From assembly GCF_014201195.1 (NCBI RefSeq), contig NZ_JACHDS010000001.1:2170001-2234000 (forward strand): a DNA stretch of 64,000 nt. Direction: 5' to 3'. A program made the translations under genes and the position numbers. The DNA comes from Nocardiopsis mwathae. Its GTDB lineage: Bacteria > Actinomycetota > Actinomycetes > Streptosporangiales > Streptosporangiaceae. The notes beneath the pieces are model-generated. The model ran no database searches and was not told where the DNA came from. It saw only the letters and a list, made by a program, of their open reading frames with translations. Of this stretch, positions 29,037-37,044 are shown in pieces. The number at the start of each line of letters is the position of its first letter. Position 1 is the first letter of the stretch.

Positions 29037-29942
29037 TCACACGGGCACCCACTCCGGCAGCGGCTCGGTGCGCCGCCGCCACTCCTCGGGCAGCCGACCG
29101 CCGGGCAGCCGGGTGCCCACGACCCCGCCGACGATCGCGCACGTGGTGTCGAGATCCCCGCCGGCCCGCACACCCGCCGCCGCGGCCGCCCACAGCGCCC
29201 CCGGGAAGTCGTCGTGGTGCTTGGCCGCCGTCCACAGCGCGAACGGCACGGTGTCGCGGGCGCCGATGAGCTCACCGCAGCCCAGCTCCGCGGCGACCGC
29301 GCACGGATCGGCGGAGATCAGCAGGGCGCGCGCATCGGCCACACCCTCGCGCACGGTCCCGGAGGGCACGTGGTCCAGGACCTCGTCGAGGAACTCGTGC
29401 GACCCCAGCGGGTCCCCGCGCGCCGCCACCGCCGCCGCGACAGCCACGGCCACCGCCCCGGCGACACCGTCGGGGTGGGTGTGGGTCACCCGGGCCGACA
29501 GCGCCGCCTGGCGCGCCGCCTCGGCCACGTCGTCGGCGAACCAGGCGCCCAGCGGCGCCACCCGCATCGCCGCGCCGCTGCCCCACGAGCCGGCCCCGCC
29601 GAACTGGGCCGGCGCCAGCGCCCGCCAGTCACCGCCCGCCCGCACCGACCTCAGCAGGTGGTCGGTGGCCCGGTGGTAGCCGCGCAGCGCGTCGTAGTGC
29701 GCGGCGAAACCCGCCACCAGCGCGTCCTGGTCCACCCGCCCGCAGCGGTAGAGCACCGCATAGACCGAGCAGGCCATCTCGGTGTCATCCGTCCACTCCC
29801 AGGGCCCCGGCGGCAGCACCCGCCCGCGCACCGCCTGCGCCCCGTCGGGCTCCAGCAGCCGCGCCCCGAAGGCGTCACCGGCCGCGAGCGCGCTCAGCGA
29901 CACCGCCGCGCGCCCGGCACGGGTGGAAACATTGGTCGACAT
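29037..29942 (-). CDS. ADP-ribosylglycohydrolase (DraG/ARH family)
   Basis: About 301 aa. The metal-binding motifs are all intact: WTDDTEM near the N-terminus, GSWGSGAAMRVAPLGAW, and GGDLDTTCAIVGGVVG near the C-terminus. The enzyme removes ADP-ribose from proteins or nucleic acids using two Mg2+ ions. The start is either the ATG at 29942 (STNVSTRAGRA) or 29957; neither has a strong ribosome site. It is divergent from nirB and shares the 230-bp region holding the GlnR-type operator; in diazotrophs DraG acts in nitrogen control, but no DraT or nitrogenase is present here, so any link is speculative. Confidence 0.88.
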   Translation of the reverse strand: MSTNVSTRAGRAAVSLSALAAGDAFGARLLEPDGAQAVRGRVLPPGPWEWTDDTEMACSVYAVLYRCGRVDQDALVAGFAAHYDALRGYHRATDHLLRSVRAGGDWRALAPAQFGGAGSWGSGAAMRVAPLGAWFADDVAEAARQAALSARVTHTHPDGVAGAVAVAVAAAVAARGDPLGSHEFLDEVLDHVPSGTVREGVADARALLISADPCAVAAELGCGELIGARDTVPFALWTAAKHHDDFPGALWAAAAAGVRAGGDLDTTCAIVGGVVGTRLPGGRLPEEWRRRTEPLPEWVPV

Positions 29943-30048
29943 CGCACCTAGCACCATGCCCGCCCGCCCCCCGCTCTACCCCCGACCTGCGCCCCTGCCG
30001 CACCCCACCGCCCGTTCACCACACCGTGACCTGCGATGGCAGGGAAAC

Positions 30049-30086
30049 GAAACATGCGCGTCACACACGGCTGACCACCCGGAAAC
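30049..30086 (+). promoter_or_regulatory. GlnR-type operator with four half-sites upstream of nirB
   Basis: GAAAC-N6-GTCAC-N6-CTGAC-N6-GAAAC, with all three gaps exactly 6 nt, so half-sites repeat every 11 bp. A further GAAAC at 30104 keeps the same phase. This is the arrangement of actinobacterial GlnR operators. It lies about 90-125 bp before nirB and also upstream of the divergent DraG-like gene. Confidence 0.7.
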
Positions 30087-30174
30087 ACCCCCTGGGTTGC
30101 CTGGAAACCCACGGAGGCGACCGGTCGGCGCCGCCACCGGCACCAGCCGACCACCGAGGGAGAAGAACTCGCAC

Positions 30175-32712
30175 ATGAGACAACTCGTCGTCATCGGCAA
30201 CGGCATGGTCGGCCACCGCCTGGTCGAAGCGATCCGCGACCGCGACACCGACGGCCGCTGGAACATCGTGGTCCTGGGCGAGGAACCGCGCCCCGCCTAC
30301 GACCGCGTCGCGCTGTCCTCCTACTTCGACGGCGCCACCGAAGAGGACCTGCGCCTGGGCGACCTGGGCGACCGCGTCACGCTGCGTTCGGGGGAACGCG
30401 CCACCGACATCGACCGCTCCGCCAAGAAGGTCACCACCTCCACCGGCGACGTCCTCGGCTACGACACCCTGGTGCTGGCCACCGGCTCCTACCCCTTCGT
30501 GCCACCCCTTCCCGGCCACGACCTGCCCGGCTGCCACGTCTACCGCACCATCGAGGACCTCGACGCCATCACCGACTCCGCCCGCGCCGCCACCACCGGC
30601 GTCGTCATCGGCGGCGGCCTGCTGGGCCTGGAAGCGGCCAACGCCCTGCGGCTGCTCGGCGTCGACACCCACGTCGTCGAACTCGCCCCCTGGCTCATGC
30701 CCGCCCAGATCGACGAGGGCGGCGGCGCCCTGCTGGGCCGCCTGATCGACGAGCTCGGCGTCACCGTGCACACCGGCACCGGCACCTCCCGCATCGAGGC
30801 CGGCGACGACGGCCGCCCCGCAGCGGTCCGCCTGGGCGAAGAGCGCATCGACGCCGACATGGTCGTGTTCTCCGTGGGCATCCGCCCCCGCGACGAGATC
30901 GCCCGCGCCGCCGGCCTGGAGATCGGCGAACGCGGCGGCGTCGTCATCGACGACGCCTGCCGCACCAGCGACCCCGACATCTACGCCGTCGGCGAGGTCG
31001 CCTGCCACGCCGGCACCGTCTACGGGCTCATCGCCCCGGGCAACGCCATGGCCGAGGTCGTCGCCGACCGCCTGGTAGGCGGCACCGCCGCCTTCACCGG
31101 CGCCGACACCTCCACCAAGCTCAAACTCCTGGGCGTGGACGTGGCCAGCTTCGGCGACGCCCACGGCCGCACCGAGGGCGCCCTGGACGTCGTCGTCAAC
31201 GACGCCGCCGGACGCCGCTACGCCAAACTCGTCGTCTCCGACGACGCCTCCACGCTGCTGGGCGGGGTCCTGGTCGGCGACGCCTCCGCCTACGCCGCGC
31301 TGCGCCCCCTGGTCGGCCACGAGCTGCCCGGCGACCCGCTGGCGCTGATCTCTCCGGCCGGAGCCGAAGGCGGCGGCGTGGGCGCCGGCGCCCTTCCCGA
31401 CGACGCCCAGATCTGCTCCTGCAACGCCGTCACCAAGGGCGACCTGACCCACGCCATCGCCGGAGGAGCCTGCGACGTGGCCGCCCTCAAGGGCTGCACC
31501 ACCGCCGGCACCAGCTGCGGCTCGTGCGTGCCCATGCTCAAGCAGCTGCTGGAGGCCTCCGGGGTCGAGCAGTCCAGCGCCCTGTGCGAGCACTTCACCC
31601 ACTCGCGCGCCGAACTCCTGGAGATCGTGCGGGCCACCGGCATCGGCACCTTCTCCGAGCTCATCGACCGGCACGGCACCGGGCGCGGCTGCGACATCTG
31701 CAAGCCGGCCGTGGCCTCCATCCTCGCCTCGCTGGGCGGCGGCCACATCCTGGAGGGCGAGCAGGCCGCACTGCAGGACACCAACGACCACTTCCTCGCC
31801 AACCTCCAGCGCAACGGCACCTACTCGGTGGTGCCGCGCATCCCCGGCGGCGAGATCACCCCCGACAAGCTCATCGTCATCGGCGAGGTCGCCCGCGACT
31901 TCGGCCTCTACACCAAGATCACCGGCGGCCAGCGCATCGACCTGTTCGGCGCCCGCGTCGAACAGCTGCCCGCGATCTGGGCCCGCCTGGTGGACGCAGG
32001 ATTCGAGTCCGGGCACGCCTACGGCAAGGCGCTGCGCACCGTCAAATCGTGTGTGGGCACCACCTGGTGCCGCTACGGCGTCCAGGACTCCGTACGCATG
32101 GCCATCGACCTGGAACTGCGCTACCGGGGCCTGCGCTCCCCGCACAAGATCAAGGCCGCCGTCTCCGGCTGCGCCCGCGAGTGCGCCGAGGCCCGCGGCA
32201 AGGACTTCGGCGTCATCGCCACCGACAAGGGCTGGAACCTGTATGTGGGCGGCAACGGCGGCTTCACCCCCCGCCACGCCGAACTGCTCGCCTCCGACCT
32301 GGACGACGCCACCCTCATCCGCTACATCGACCGCTTCCTGATGTTCTACATCCGCACCGCCGACCGGCTGCAGCGCACCTCCACCTGGATCGAGAACCTG
32401 GAGGGCGGCCTGGACCACCTGCGCGCCGTCGTCGTCGACGACTCCCTGGGCATCGCCGCCGACCTGGAACGCGACATGGCCGCCCACGTCGCCGCCTACG
32501 CCGACGAATGGCGCGGCGTCCTGGAGGACCCCGACAAGCTCGCCCGGTTCGCGTCCTTCGCCAACGCCCCCCAGGCCCCCGACCCCACCATCAGCTTCGC
32601 CACCGAGCGCGACCAGCCCGTCCCGGCCGGCCCCGTCGCGCTGGGCATGCCCGCACCGCCCGTCGGCGACGCACGGCCCGCACCCAACGGATCCGCACCC
32701 GTGGAGGTCTGA
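30175..32712 (+). CDS. nirB: Assimilatory nitrite reductase large subunit
   Basis: 845 aa, full length. FAD fold (LVVIGNGMVGHRLVEAI), NADH fold (VVIGGGLLGLEAANALR), BFD-type [2Fe-2S] region (CSCNAVTKG ... TSCGSC) and a C-terminal siroheme/[4Fe-4S] module with C-x5-C (KSCVGTTWCRYG) and C-x3-C (SGCARECAEA). It reduces nitrite to ammonium with NAD(P)H in the cytoplasm, together with NirD. The ribosome site is weak (GGGAG 13 nt from ATG 30175). nirD begins 4 nt after its stop. The four-half-site GlnR-type operator upstream and nnaR downstream indicate nitrogen control. Confidence 0.95.
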   Translation: MRQLVVIGNGMVGHRLVEAIRDRDTDGRWNIVVLGEEPRPAYDRVALSSYFDGATEEDLRLGDLGDRVTLRSGERATDIDRSAKKVTTSTGDVLGYDTLVLATGSYPFVPPLPGHDLPGCHVYRTIEDLDAITDSARAATTGVVIGGGLLGLEAANALRLLGVDTHVVELAPWLMPAQIDEGGGALLGRLIDELGVTVHTGTGTSRIEAGDDGRPAAVRLGEERIDADMVVFSVGIRPRDEIARAAGLEIGERGGVVIDDACRTSDPDIYAVGEVACHAGTVYGLIAPGNAMAEVVADRLVGGTAAFTGADTSTKLKLLGVDVASFGDAHGRTEGALDVVVNDAAGRRYAKLVVSDDASTLLGGVLVGDASAYAALRPLVGHELPGDPLALISPAGAEGGGVGAGALPDDAQICSCNAVTKGDLTHAIAGGACDVAALKGCTTAGTSCGSCVPMLKQLLEASGVEQSSALCEHFTHSRAELLEIVRATGIGTFSELIDRHGTGRGCDICKPAVASILASLGGGHILEGEQAALQDTNDHFLANLQRNGTYSVVPRIPGGEITPDKLIVIGEVARDFGLYTKITGGQRIDLFGARVEQLPAIWARLVDAGFESGHAYGKALRTVKSCVGTTWCRYGVQDSVRMAIDLELRYRGLRSPHKIKAAVSGCARECAEARGKDFGVIATDKGWNLYVGGNGGFTPRHAELLASDLDDATLIRYIDRFLMFYIRTADRLQRTSTWIENLEGGLDHLRAVVVDDSLGIAADLERDMAAHVAAYADEWRGVLEDPDKLARFASFANAPQAPDPTISFATERDQPVPAGPVALGMPAPPVGDARPAPNGSAPVEV

Positions 32713-32715
32713 CCG

Positions 32716-33111
32716 ATGACCGCACCCGCCCCCACCGCCCTGCCCGCGGTGCCCACCACCCCCGACGGCCAGTGGGTCCCCGCCTGCCCCGCCGAACGGC
32801 TCCTGCCCGAGCGCGGTGTGGCCGTCCTGCTGCCCTGCGGCGGCCAGGCCGCCCTGTTCCGCACCCACGACGGCACCCTCTACGCCCTGGACAACATCGA
32901 CCCGTTCAGCGGCGCGGCGGTGATGTCCCGCGGCATCGTCGGCGACCGCGCCGGGGAGCCCACCGTGGCCTCTCCCATGCTCAAGCAGGTGTTCTCGCTG
33001 CGCACCGGCGTCTGCCTGGACGACCCCCAGGTACGCCTGGCCACCCACCGGGTGCGCGAGCACGACGGCGCCGTCCAGGTCAGCGCCCGGCCCGCGGGGG
33101 AGTCGCGGTGA
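32716..33111 (+). CDS. nirD: Nitrite reductase small subunit
   Basis: 131 aa. Rieske-like fold without the cluster ligands, as usual for NirD: ACPAERLLPERGVAVLL, LYALDNIDPFSGAAVMSRGI, ASPMLKQVFSLRTGVCLDD. It is the partner of NirB in the nitrite reductase complex. Its stop overlaps the nnaR start (GTGA), which implies translational coupling of the regulator to the enzyme. Confidence 0.93.
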   Translation: MTAPAPTALPAVPTTPDGQWVPACPAERLLPERGVAVLLPCGGQAALFRTHDGTLYALDNIDPFSGAAVMSRGIVGDRAGEPTVASPMLKQVFSLRTGVCLDDPQVRLATHRVREHDGAVQVSARPAGESR

Positions 33112-34283
33112 GCACCTCCGCCCACAGCCCGCCCCACAGCCCGCCCCGCACCCGCCCCCAACCCGCCGCCGCGGTACCCCCTCTGGCCGGGTTCACCGTC
33201 GCGGTCACCGCGGCGCGGCGCGCCGACGAGCTGGCCGCCCTGCTGCGCCGCAAGGGCGCGGAGGTCGTGTGCGCCCCCGCGCTGCGCATCGTCCCGCTCA
33301 GCGACGACCAGCGCCTGGCCGCCGTCTCCCGCCGCCTGATCGCCGAGCCCGCCGACGTCGTCGTGGCCACCACCGGCATCGGATTCCGCGGCTGGGTGGA
33401 GGCCTGCGAGACCTGGGGGCAGGCCGAGGGGCTGGTCTCCGCCATGGCCAACGCCCGGCTCATCGCCCGCGGGCCCAAGGCCAAGGGCGCCATCCGCGCG
33501 GCCGGGCTCACCGAGGAGTGGTCGCCCCCCTCGGAGTCCTCCGCCGAAGTCCTGGACTACCTGCTGTCCACCGGCGTGTCCGGGCTGCGCGTCGCCGTCC
33601 AGCTGCACGGCGAGCCGCTGCCCGACTTCTGCGCAGCCCTGCGCATGGCCGGCGCCGACGTCGTCGAGGTCCCCATCTACCGGTGGACCGAACCCGAGGA
33701 CGTCGCCCCCCTGGACCGGCTCATCGACGGCGTCGTCGGCGGCGCCGTCGACGCGGTGACCTTCACCAGCGCCCCGGCCGCCGCCGGGCTGCTGGCCCGC
33801 GCCGAGCAGACCGGCCTGCGGCACCCGCTGGTCGCCGCCCTGCGCACCGGCGCGCTGGCCATGTGCGTGGGCCCCGTCACCGCGCGCCCCCTCATGGCCC
33901 ACGACATCCCCACCGTGTGGCCCGCCCGCGCCCGCATCGGCGCCCAGGTCCGCAAGCTCACCGAGGAGCTGCCCGACCGCTACCCCCTGCTACCGGTCGC
34001 CGGACACCGGCTGCGGCTGCGCGGCCACGCGGTCCTGCTCGACGGGGTGGTCCGGCCCATCTCCCCGGCCCTCATGCGGGTGCTGCGGGAACTGGCCCGC
34101 CGCCCCGGCCAGGTACGCGACCGCGCCGACCTGCTGGCCGGCCTCGGAGGCGACGCCGACGCCCACGCCGTGGAGACGGCGGTGGCCCGGCTGCGCACCG
34201 CCCTGGGCGACCCCAAGATCATCCAGACCGTGGTCAAGCGGGGCTACCGGCTGGCCTTGGACAGCGGCGACTGCCCCGCCTAG
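33108..34283 (+). CDS. nnaR: NnaR-like regulator: uroporphyrinogen-III synthase-like domain + winged helix
   Basis: 391 aa. Residues about 25-280 resemble HemD (VAVTAARRADELAALLRRKG, VVVATTGIGFRGWVEA, AVTFTSAPAAAGLLA). Residues about 300-391 are an OmpR-type winged helix (VVRPISPALMRVLRELARRP, TAVARLRTALGDPKIIQTV, ending RGYRLAL). This two-domain layout directly after nirBD is that of Streptomyces NnaR, which helps GlnR activate nitrate/nitrite genes. It may also keep HemD activity for siroheme synthesis. The GTG start overlaps the nirD stop. Confidence 0.85.
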   Translation: MSTSAHSPPHSPPRTRPQPAAAVPPLAGFTVAVTAARRADELAALLRRKGAEVVCAPALRIVPLSDDQRLAAVSRRLIAEPADVVVATTGIGFRGWVEACETWGQAEGLVSAMANARLIARGPKAKGAIRAAGLTEEWSPPSESSAEVLDYLLSTGVSGLRVAVQLHGEPLPDFCAALRMAGADVVEVPIYRWTEPEDVAPLDRLIDGVVGGAVDAVTFTSAPAAAGLLARAEQTGLRHPLVAALRTGALAMCVGPVTARPLMAHDIPTVWPARARIGAQVRKLTEELPDRYPLLPVAGHRLRLRGHAVLLDGVVRPISPALMRVLRELARRPGQVRDRADLLAGLGGDADAHAVETAVARLRTALGDPKIIQTVVKRGYRLALDSGDCPA

Positions 34284-34293
34284 AGGAGGTCCG

Positions 34294-35058
34294 ATGCCCG
34301 CCTCACACCCGCTGGCCGCCGCCCCGGAGTCCCCGGCGGCGGCGCCCGGCGCCGCGCACCGCGCGCACGCCCCCACACTGCTGCTGGCCGTCCACGGCAC
34401 CCGCGACCCGCACGGCGTGGCGGTGGCCCGCGCGCTGGCCCGGCACGCGGCCCGCTGCGCCGGCGTACCGGTACACCTGGGCTTCGCCGACGTCCTGGGC
34501 CCTGATGTGGGGGAGGTCGCGGCCGCCGTCGAGGGGCCGGTGGTGGTCGTCCCGGCGTTCCTGTCCGCCGGGTACCACGTGCACGTGGACATCCCCGCCC
34601 AGCTGGAGCGGGCCGGGCGGGCCGATGCCGTGGTCGCCGGGGCGCTGGGCGGCGACGCGCGGCTGATCACCGCCGCGGCGCGGCGGCTGCGCCGGGCGGG
34701 GTGGGTGCCGGGCGACGCGGTGGTGCTGGCGGCCGCCGGGTCGTCGGACGCCGGGGCGCGCGCCCAGGTGCGCGGCGCCGCGGTGCGGCTGTCGCGCGCG
34801 CTGGACGCGCCCGTGGAGGTGGGCTACATCGCCACCGCCGAGCCGCGGGTGCCCGATGTCGTGGCGCGCGTACGGGGCCAGGGGAGGGGGACGGGCAGGG
34901 TCGCGATCGCGTCCTGGCTGCTGGCGCCGGGACTGTTCCACCGGCGCCTGGCCGAGGCCGGTGCCGATGCGGTGGCCGACCCGCTGTGCCCGGACGGCGC
35001 CGTGGCCCAGGCGGTGGCGGCCCGCTACCGCGAAGCGGTGGCCGCCCAGCCGGTGTAA
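34294..35058 (+). CDS. Sirohydrochlorin chelatase (CbiX/SirB-like)
   Basis: 254 aa. Two tandem CbiX-type half domains: LLLAVHGTRDPHG with VVVPAFLSAGYHVHVDIP (catalytic His residues), then VVLAAAGSSDAGARAQV and VAIASWLLAPGLFHRRL. It inserts Fe into sirohydrochlorin to make the siroheme that NirB needs, which explains its place at the end of this operon, 10 nt after nnaR with GAGGAGG as ribosome site. A cobalt-chelatase role cannot be excluded by sequence alone. Confidence 0.85.
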   Translation: MPASHPLAAAPESPAAAPGAAHRAHAPTLLLAVHGTRDPHGVAVARALARHAARCAGVPVHLGFADVLGPDVGEVAAAVEGPVVVVPAFLSAGYHVHVDIPAQLERAGRADAVVAGALGGDARLITAAARRLRRAGWVPGDAVVLAAAGSSDAGARAQVRGAAVRLSRALDAPVEVGYIATAEPRVPDVVARVRGQGRGTGRVAIASWLLAPGLFHRRLAEAGADAVADPLCPDGAVAQAVAARYREAVAAQPV

Positions 35059-35463: not shown

Positions 35464-35630
35464 GTGGTGTCGTTCATCGATACCTCCGCCGCGGTGTCAT
35501 CGTCATCATCCCGTTACCCGGCCCGGGATCCGGCACCCGCGGTGTGGCCGGATCCGGCAACCTGCCTTCCAGTTGTTCTCTAGAGGGAATGTAGGAGGCG
35601 TGCGGACCGTGCGACGCGATGGGAGAGCCG

Positions 35631-36800
35631 ATGTCCTCCGCCCCGCAGCAGATCGAGACCGGTGCGGTCTGGGACCGCGACGACCCGCGGCTGGACCGCG
35701 CCGCCGGGGCATGGGTGGGCGCGGCGGCCGCGGCGTGCATCGTCGGGGCACCCCCGGCGGTGACCGCCGGGGTGTGCCACCCCAACGGCCGCGCCGGCGG
35801 GCCGTCGCGGCTGGCCTGGCTGATCGGCACGGCGCTGGCCGGCCTCAACGACCCCGCCGCGGCGGCGACGGGGGTGCAGTGCCCCACGGAGCGGGCCTGG
35901 ACGGTGGCGCTGGCGCGTACCGTGGCCGAGGGGCAGGTGCCGCCGATGGACCAGGTGGCCTCCGACCGCGGCCCGATCGCGACGGCGTGGCGGTCGGTGC
36001 TGCGCACCCCGGTGCCCGCGCCGGATCCCGCGCGCGGCTCCTTCCCCTGCTCGCAGCTGGTGGAAGCGGTGTGGCGGGCCTCTGCGCGCGGCGGCGACGC
36101 GGCGGCGATGTACGCCGGGGCGCTGGCGGGCGCACGCTGGGGGATGTCGGGGATCCCGCTGGAGGCGCAGCGGCGGCTGGCCGACACCGTGGCGCCGCGC
36201 AGCCTGGTGACGCGGGGTGTGGTGCGGGCGCGGGGCAGCGATCCGCGGGTCTGGCCCGAGCAGGTGCGCAACGGCCGCAGCGACAGCCCGCACATCCGCC
36301 ACCCGTTCGCGGTCGCCCACCCCTACGACCCGGGGGTGACGCTGTGCAATCTGGCCTACGTGCGCTCGCGGCGCGGCGCCGAGGCGGTGGTGTCGCTGTG
36401 CCGCACGGGTCCGGGCGACGTGCCGCCCGGCCTTGCGCCCGGTGACCGGGTGGAGGTGTGGCTGGCCGACCGGGAGGGGGTCAACCCCAACCTGCACTTC
36501 GTGCTGGACGAGGCGGCACGCGCGGTGGCGGCGCTGCGGGCGGAGGGCAAGCGGGTGCTGCTGCACTGCGCGGCCGGGCAGTCGCGCACACCCGCGGTCG
36601 CCGCGCACTACGCCGCGGCGGCATGCGGGGCCGACGTGGTCGAGGCGCTGCGGGCGACGATCCGGTCGGTGGGCGGCCATGTCGACACCCCGGAGCTGTC
36701 CCGGGCAGCGGCGGCGCTGAACGGTGTGGACCTGGCCGACCCGGCCAAGGAGCTGTTCCCCGACGGGCTGCCCGCCCTGCGGCCGAGCCCGCCGGTCTGA
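35631..36800 (+). CDS. Degenerate ADP-ribosylglycohydrolase domain fused to dual-specificity phosphatase
   Basis: 389 aa from ATG 35631 (GGGAG 5 nt upstream; ATG 35619 also possible). Residues about 15-200 follow the ARH fold (RAAGAWVGAAAAACIVG, ARGGDAAAMYAGALAGARWG), but the metal motif GGDxDTxAAI has become GGDAAAMYAG and the N-terminal DDT motif is absent, so hydrolase activity is unlikely. Residues about 240-375 are a tyrosine/dual-specificity phosphatase with intact CX5R loop LLHCAAGQSRTPAVAAHYA and the general-acid region. It may bind ADP-ribose and dephosphorylate a partner. The neighbours give no pathway, but an active DraG-like enzyme lies 6 kb away. Confidence 0.75.
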   Translation: MSSAPQQIETGAVWDRDDPRLDRAAGAWVGAAAAACIVGAPPAVTAGVCHPNGRAGGPSRLAWLIGTALAGLNDPAAAATGVQCPTERAWTVALARTVAEGQVPPMDQVASDRGPIATAWRSVLRTPVPAPDPARGSFPCSQLVEAVWRASARGGDAAAMYAGALAGARWGMSGIPLEAQRRLADTVAPRSLVTRGVVRARGSDPRVWPEQVRNGRSDSPHIRHPFAVAHPYDPGVTLCNLAYVRSRRGAEAVVSLCRTGPGDVPPGLAPGDRVEVWLADREGVNPNLHFVLDEAARAVAALRAEGKRVLLHCAAGQSRTPAVAAHYAAAACGADVVEALRATIRSVGGHVDTPELSRAAAALNGVDLADPAKELFPDGLPALRPSPPV

Positions 36801-36825: not shown

Positions 36826-37044
36826 CTAGTTCTTGCGTTCCTCCAGGCGCAGTGCGACACCGAGGGCGAAGAAGGTGGGCGCCCACTGGCCCACGAAGAT
36901 GCCCCAGCGGTCGGCGCGGGCCATGTCGGCGTCCTCGCCCTTCTTGGAGGCGAGCCAGGTGAGGATGCTCAGCCCGATGGAAGCGGCCCCGGCGGAGTAG
37001 GCCATGCCGGAGGTGACTCCCGCTTCTGACAGCTTGGCGATCAT
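36826..37044 (-). CDS. Small actinobacterial membrane protein
   Basis: 72 aa. Two hydrophobic segments, GMAYSAGAASIGLSILTWLA and WGIFVGQWAPTFFALGVAL, separated by a charged loop (SKKGEDADMARADR), so both ends should be on the same side. It resembles short conserved hypothetical membrane proteins of actinobacteria, but I know of no function. ATG 37044 has GGGGGG 5 nt upstream. Confidence 0.65.
   Translation of the reverse strand: MIAKLSEAGVTSGMAYSAGAASIGLSILTWLASKKGEDADMARADRWGIFVGQWAPTFFALGVALRLEERKN

Follow-up and report, generated by a model that had tools for sequence, protein, structure and literature searches.

Has the gene at 35619..36800 (plus strand) of the window, the whole 64,000-nucleotide stretch of Nocardiopsis mwathae DNA analysed here, simply let one of its two enzymes decay, or has a disabled enzyme been kept there for another task? 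A sequence-only reading had described it as an ADP-ribosylglycohydrolase (ARH) that has lost its last metal motif, fused to a phosphatase with an intact active site. Reading of the open reading frame (ORF) confirmed that an ARH-derived half and a phosphatase are encoded there. The ORF opens with an ATG at 35619, has a second in-frame ATG at 35631 and closes with a stop codon at 36798-36800, giving 393 residues from the first start and 389 from the second. The start at 35631 is likelier, since GGAG lies directly upstream of it and the ATG aligned with it is also a possible start in the nearest orthologue. Residues of the window protein are numbered from the ATG at 35619.

The C-terminal domain (residues 228-372; 36300..36734) was identified as a dual-specificity phosphatase (DSP) by Pfam DSPc (PF00782), which it matched at E 4e-7 with 30.2 bits; the gathering score is 33.5, and another member of the same family, L006, scored 34.1 bits. 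The nearest DSPs by sequence are archaeal TkPTP and ShufPTP. The N-terminal part (residues 22-209; 35682..36245) gave a far fainter signal. Pfam ADP_ribosyl_GH (PF03747) matched its tail only, at residues 144-181 with E 0.065 and 13.3 bits, below the cut-off of 26.2, and no Pfam match to this family was listed for three other proteins of the same short type. A profile of six such short forms alone, compared with solved structures, returned DSPs and no ARH chain at E up to 1; ARH hits among solved structures came from a profile that included five full-length relatives. Taken by itself, the window sequence therefore identifies an ARH weakly.

The link to ARH proteins is provided by full-length ARH-DSP fusions of 491-544 residues, such as WP_238546003.1 from Streptomyces clavuligerus plasmid pSCL3, which is annotated as 'ADP-ribosylglycohydrolase family protein'. 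These carry a complete ARH domain, scoring E 2.5e-46 to 3.3e-54 against Pfam ADP_ribosyl_GH in the four that were scanned. The window protein aligns with them at 39-46% identity over 206-271 residues, colinear through the end of the ARH, the linker and the DSP; the complete ARH domain is absent from it. Because the homology runs through the domain border, two independent fusions for the short and full forms are disfavoured. This colinearity makes the ARH ancestry of the N-terminal half secure, together with the ARH structures matched by a model for which six short forms alone were used (below).

We next set out what the two halves have lost and kept. From 60 extracted rows, 49 short and 11 full, motifs were counted in 45 aligned short and 10 full forms. 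Five rows were excluded from these counts and from the first tree: L071 was badly trimmed, L075, L078 and L079 were incomplete, and L085 is a full form without its N-terminus. Two short-form loci, L073 and L082 (in three pieces), have no whole frame. GDALG is present in all 10 full forms and is replaced mostly by Ala, Leu or Val in the short ones, SDDT is deleted in 45/45, GNGSLMR is replaced, and DTDT is gone from every one. By sequence and alignment, its place in the window protein is taken by the degenerate GGDAAAMYAG (residues 158-167; 36090..36119). The two Mg-site motifs SDDT and DTDT thus occur in 0 of 45 short forms compared to 9-10 of 10 full forms, and a search of all 49 extracted short rows for SDDT/TDDT and D[TS]D[TS] found none. 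The DRxxG-to-GARWG span has a median of 145 residues in the 37 short rows with both marks and of 284.5 in the 10 full forms, so ~140 residues are missing and the ARH part is cut to about half its length. The sequence-only reading was right about the last motif but understated the loss, which extends to GDALG, SDDT, GNGSLMR and these ~140 residues. According to the available text of PMC9738213, SDDT and DTDT-type motifs bind Mg in ARH1 and ARH3, and that of PMC8141533 names Thr76, Asp77, Asp78, Asp314, Asp316 and Thr317 as metal ligands of human ARH3. By deletion or replacement, the short forms have lost the positions equivalent to the metal and ribose ligands of ARH3 as well as the GNG loop.

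The phosphatase, in contrast to the ARH part, has kept its catalytic residues. The alignment shows D284 (36468..36470) and, in the P-loop HCAAGQSRT (residues 316-324; 36564..36590), C317, S322, R323 and T324 in 45/45 short forms, and HC-x5-RT occurs in 49 of the 49 extracted short rows. The complete CX5R loop claimed earlier is therefore a property of the whole group. The full forms have the same P-loop, and D284, the presumed general acid by analogy with the PTP family, is also kept in 10/10 of them. Phosphatase activity of the short forms is predicted from these residues, and ADP-ribosylhydrolase activity is presumably absent. The C-terminal tail LFPDGLP (residues 379-385; 36753..36773) has its LF in 45/45 short forms, and the full forms lack it.

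Structure prediction, a check that the sequence-only reading had proposed, recovered an ARH fold and a DSP fold. An AlphaFold2 model built on 41 rows, three of them full forms, reached pLDDT 92.7 and pTM 0.92; with six short forms only, the model was weaker (pLDDT 75.3, pTM 0.67). Residues 16-207 of this six-row model still matched ARH chains (Tri1 6dre, Z 14.8, 174 aligned, rmsd 3.1), and its DSP match reached Z 14.3. In the 41-row model, residues 17-202 matched 2yzw (Z 15.5, 166 aligned, rmsd 2.9), 6dre (Z 15.4, 168 aligned, rmsd 2.9) and DraG 2woc (Z 15.0, 168 aligned, rmsd 2.8), and residues 224-367 matched DUSP8 4jmk (Z 16.3, 136 aligned, rmsd 2.2). The ARH matches came from VIA-align; Foldseek gave no ARH among the 50 matches listed and nothing at E 0.001. 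Z ~14 can be reached by chance for helical models, but here numerous ARH entries give the same match, which extends over almost all of the ARH chain. We are confident that both folds are present in the modelled window protein.

Is the motif loss peculiar to this gene? Orthologues share it, which rules out the decay of a single gene. The sequence-only reading would have given way to simple decay if orthologues had kept full ARH motifs; instead the degenerate site is conserved in them (SDDT and DTDT absent, DSP residues present throughout), and the motif-intact relatives form a separate group. A single branch with SH-aLRT 100 divides short from full forms in a tree of 45 + 10 rows and again in one of 36 + 33 rows, for which 36 of the 45 short rows were taken; both trees are unrooted, were made by a quick method and include two long-branch rows and several of odd composition. 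Since motif-intact fusions are widely spread and share their motifs with other ARH proteins, we infer that they represent the older state.

Within the window's family, 54 of 297 genomes gave a match, representing 13 of 68 genera. By our reading of the match table and the extracted loci, 51 of the 297 have a short form (some incomplete), and three of the matching genomes (G030, G187, G264) have only a full form. Four genomes hold both forms together (G008, G154, G079, G296), and G072 has an incomplete full copy. Full-length fusions occur in many actinobacterial families. In the class sample, 110 of 394 genomes matched the full-form profile, many through the ARH part alone; both domains were spanned in 27 of 30 loci fetched, and these 27 long relatives show the DDT pattern in 25 cases, a DTDT-like motif in 26 and HC-x5-R in 26. 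The phylum sample gave 9 matches in 296 genomes, and the N-terminal remnant was covered only in that of the window's genome. Six of the other eight are full forms (G347, G042, G782, G811, G889, G859); the remaining two are a DSP-only frame of 181 aa (G869) and a sequence without ARH motif or HC-x5-R (G699). Together with a partial fusion from another family that has DTDT and lacks the N-terminal motifs (G420), these two count against a clean family border.

Named genomes contributed 73 loci, classed by pattern as 39 short, 27 full, 3 mixed and 4 unclassed. All but two of the short forms (37/39) belong to Nocardiopsidaceae, including Thermobifida fusca and many Nocardiopsis; the exceptions are a 172-residue piece from Micromonospora veneta, only putatively a short form, and a locus of 'Glycomyces fuscus' TRM 49117. 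The latter (L162, NYMS01000001.1) is a Nocardiopsis-type short form, and its species label is probably wrong. In the tree, G316 is likewise placed with rows of the Nocardiopsis type. On plasmids, 27 records matched, 25 of them from Streptomyces and none covering more than 80% of the query, and the two that were fetched are full-length. In a 166-aa frame of G023 (L010) the DRxxG start is followed immediately by the end of the ARH and by the DSP loop; from its sequence, this frame appears to be the remnant of a second ARH-DSP copy. No phage matched the window protein at E 1e-5, which argues against phage origin; in PHROGs, the separate ARH described below and two of the full forms have matches and the window protein has none. 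A defence role was likewise set aside, as searches with the window protein, the separate ARH and these full forms gave no PADLOC family at E 0.01.

Most short forms sit in a conserved gene neighbourhood, with nirB, a Rieske-type nirD, hemD and cbiX upstream and a gene with a DPBB domain downstream. In the window, the four upstream genes stand in a row at 29782-35058 on the plus strand, and hemD is fused to a response-regulator-type DNA-binding domain. Among 20 wide flanks, cbiX was found in 17, and nirB and the DPBB gene in 16 each. The four flanks without nirB are L049, which may end too soon, and L057-L059, where none of six neighbours matched. The conserved block extends well past the nitrite-reductase and sirohaem genes, so we rejected a functional link to them and take the adjacency as shared descent, which supports orthology rather than a joint task. 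A 72-residue ORF at 36826-37044 on the minus strand has no Pfam match, and of the 20 wide flanks only the congener's contains it.

The window also contains a separate ARH (29043-29957, minus strand) with the complete motifs TDDT, GSGAAMR and GGDLDT, 5.7 kb from the short gene and the only ARH above cut-off in this genome. It was found in 116 of 297 family genomes, and in 14 genomes no more than ~10 kb separates it from the short gene. At E 1e-25, 29 of 51 short-form genomes have it, compared to 87 of 246 genomes without a short form. An obligate partnership is ruled out by the other 22 short-form genomes, which gave no match at this threshold. In three genomes, G242, G273 and G319, and at the loci L042, L077 and L082, the nitrite-reductase genes do not lie in between, and the separate ARH and the pseudo-ARH-DSP gene are divergent neighbours ~200 bases apart.

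On balance, we think it probable that the pseudo-ARH has been retained because it plays a structural, regulatory or docking part in a predicted active phosphatase. An ancestral ARH-DSP fusion would have carried two active sites; the loss of ~140 ARH residues, with both Mg-site motifs and the GNG loop, would have turned its N-terminal ARH into a pseudoenzyme prior to the radiation of the window's family. The remaining helical core may still be packed against the phosphatase and would now most likely be a scaffold that keeps the DSP stable, regulates access to it or provides a docking site for a protein, either substrate or partner. The earlier suggestion of a protein sensor comes close to this docking role. 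The remnant could instead be a relic that persists only through packing of its core on the DSP and erodes slowly without a specific task, and the rates give this some weight. The median remnant/DSP p-distance ratio is 1.51 among short forms (988 pairs) and 0.83 for the same columns of full forms (45 pairs), and 16 of 183 remnant columns are conserved at 95% compared to 50 of 144 in the DSP. Between the window and its congener, dN/dS is 0.57 for the remnant and 0.25 for the DSP, values that come from simple counting under strong GC bias and are rough in absolute terms. Among the 24 closest pairs listed, the remnant is below 1 in 16 and above 1 in 8, in which the DSP stands at 0.38-0.54; all eight are from one genus and five involve the partial row L075 or L038. 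Relaxed constraint is thus possible. Yet the remnant is present in all 45 aligned short forms from 13 genera, is the slower part in 2 of the 24 closest pairs listed, and has a confidently predicted fold. Moreover, short forms share new residues, which counts against pure decay: P108 in 44/45, C144 in 43/45, and A170, I348, H354, A365, L379 and F380 in 45/45, all without counterpart in full forms. C144, however, has been lost in one species pair (G288, G276). Overall, we regard a mere relic as unlikely.

The sensor idea of the sequence-only reading, in which the pseudo-ARH would steer the phosphatase by binding ADP-ribose or a protein modified with it, seems improbable to us. It would draw on the ARH ancestry and on the nearby motif-intact ARH. 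Moreover, in the available text of PMC8141533, human ARH3 D77A, with one Mg fewer, still binds ADP-ribose, and more tightly, whereas D314A binds it 44-fold less, so metal loss by itself does not settle binding. However, SDDT, DTDT and the GNG loop, elements that a sensor would be expected to need, are gone along with the ARH3-ligand counterparts, and the separate ARH has no match in the 22 genomes mentioned above; the analysis does not support an ADP-ribose sensor. A link between two signalling modifications, as proposed there, is a better fit for the full-length relatives than for the window protein. We see little likelihood, too, that the pseudo-ARH is a reader that brings the phosphatase to a target carrying ADP-ribose or to the protein encoded by the separate ARH gene; if it did, an ancestral eraser of two modifications would have become a reader-eraser linking both. 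Finally, the substrate of the DSP might be a small phosphate derived from NAD, for instance NADP or ADP-ribose phosphates, instead of a protein. In favour of this are the ARH ancestry and a match below threshold to PTP-NADK, in which a DSP is fused to NAD kinase (E 0.01 in one full form, 0.05 in one short form), but at 13-16 bits against a cut-off of 27 that match is far outscored by DSPc, and most of the listed structural neighbours are protein phosphatases, which leaves a small-molecule substrate very improbable.

Compared to known proteins, the short forms share the colinear ARH-linker-DSP order and an identical P-loop and Asp with the full-length fusions, which differ in their complete ARH motifs, ~140 further residues and lack of the LFPxGxP tail. 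Residues 17-202 have the fold of DraG, ARH3 and Tri1-type ARHs, but in a short form without metal and GNG motifs that scores below the Pfam cut-off. The phosphatase resembles other DSPs in fold, HC-x5-RT loop and upstream Asp; unlike them it bears a pseudo-ARH, and its identity is 10-28% in the structure matches. The closest precedent is vertebrate ADPRHL1/ARH2, which the available text of PMC9738213 and PMC10601310 presents as an ARH-fold protein without critical residues; the short form is joined to a phosphatase, as ADPRHL1, going by that part of PMC9738213, apparently is not. Searches confined to an open-access library gave no description of an ARH-DSP fusion. The family would offer a clear natural example, in soil actinobacteria, of how the domain of a metalloenzyme can become a non-catalytic part of a different enzyme. 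The motif-intact fusion persists in relatives, sometimes in the same genome, and this pairing makes the function of the pseudoenzyme testable. The full-length forms, in turn, point to a widespread coupling of ADP-ribose removal and phosphate removal by fusion in Actinomycetota. As a minor observation, eight of the 45 short forms, among them L004, L026, L029 and L032-L036, have Cys in place of the P-loop Gly, giving HC-x-A-C-Q-S-R-T with a second Cys three residues past the catalytic one, a redox-sensor-like spacing.
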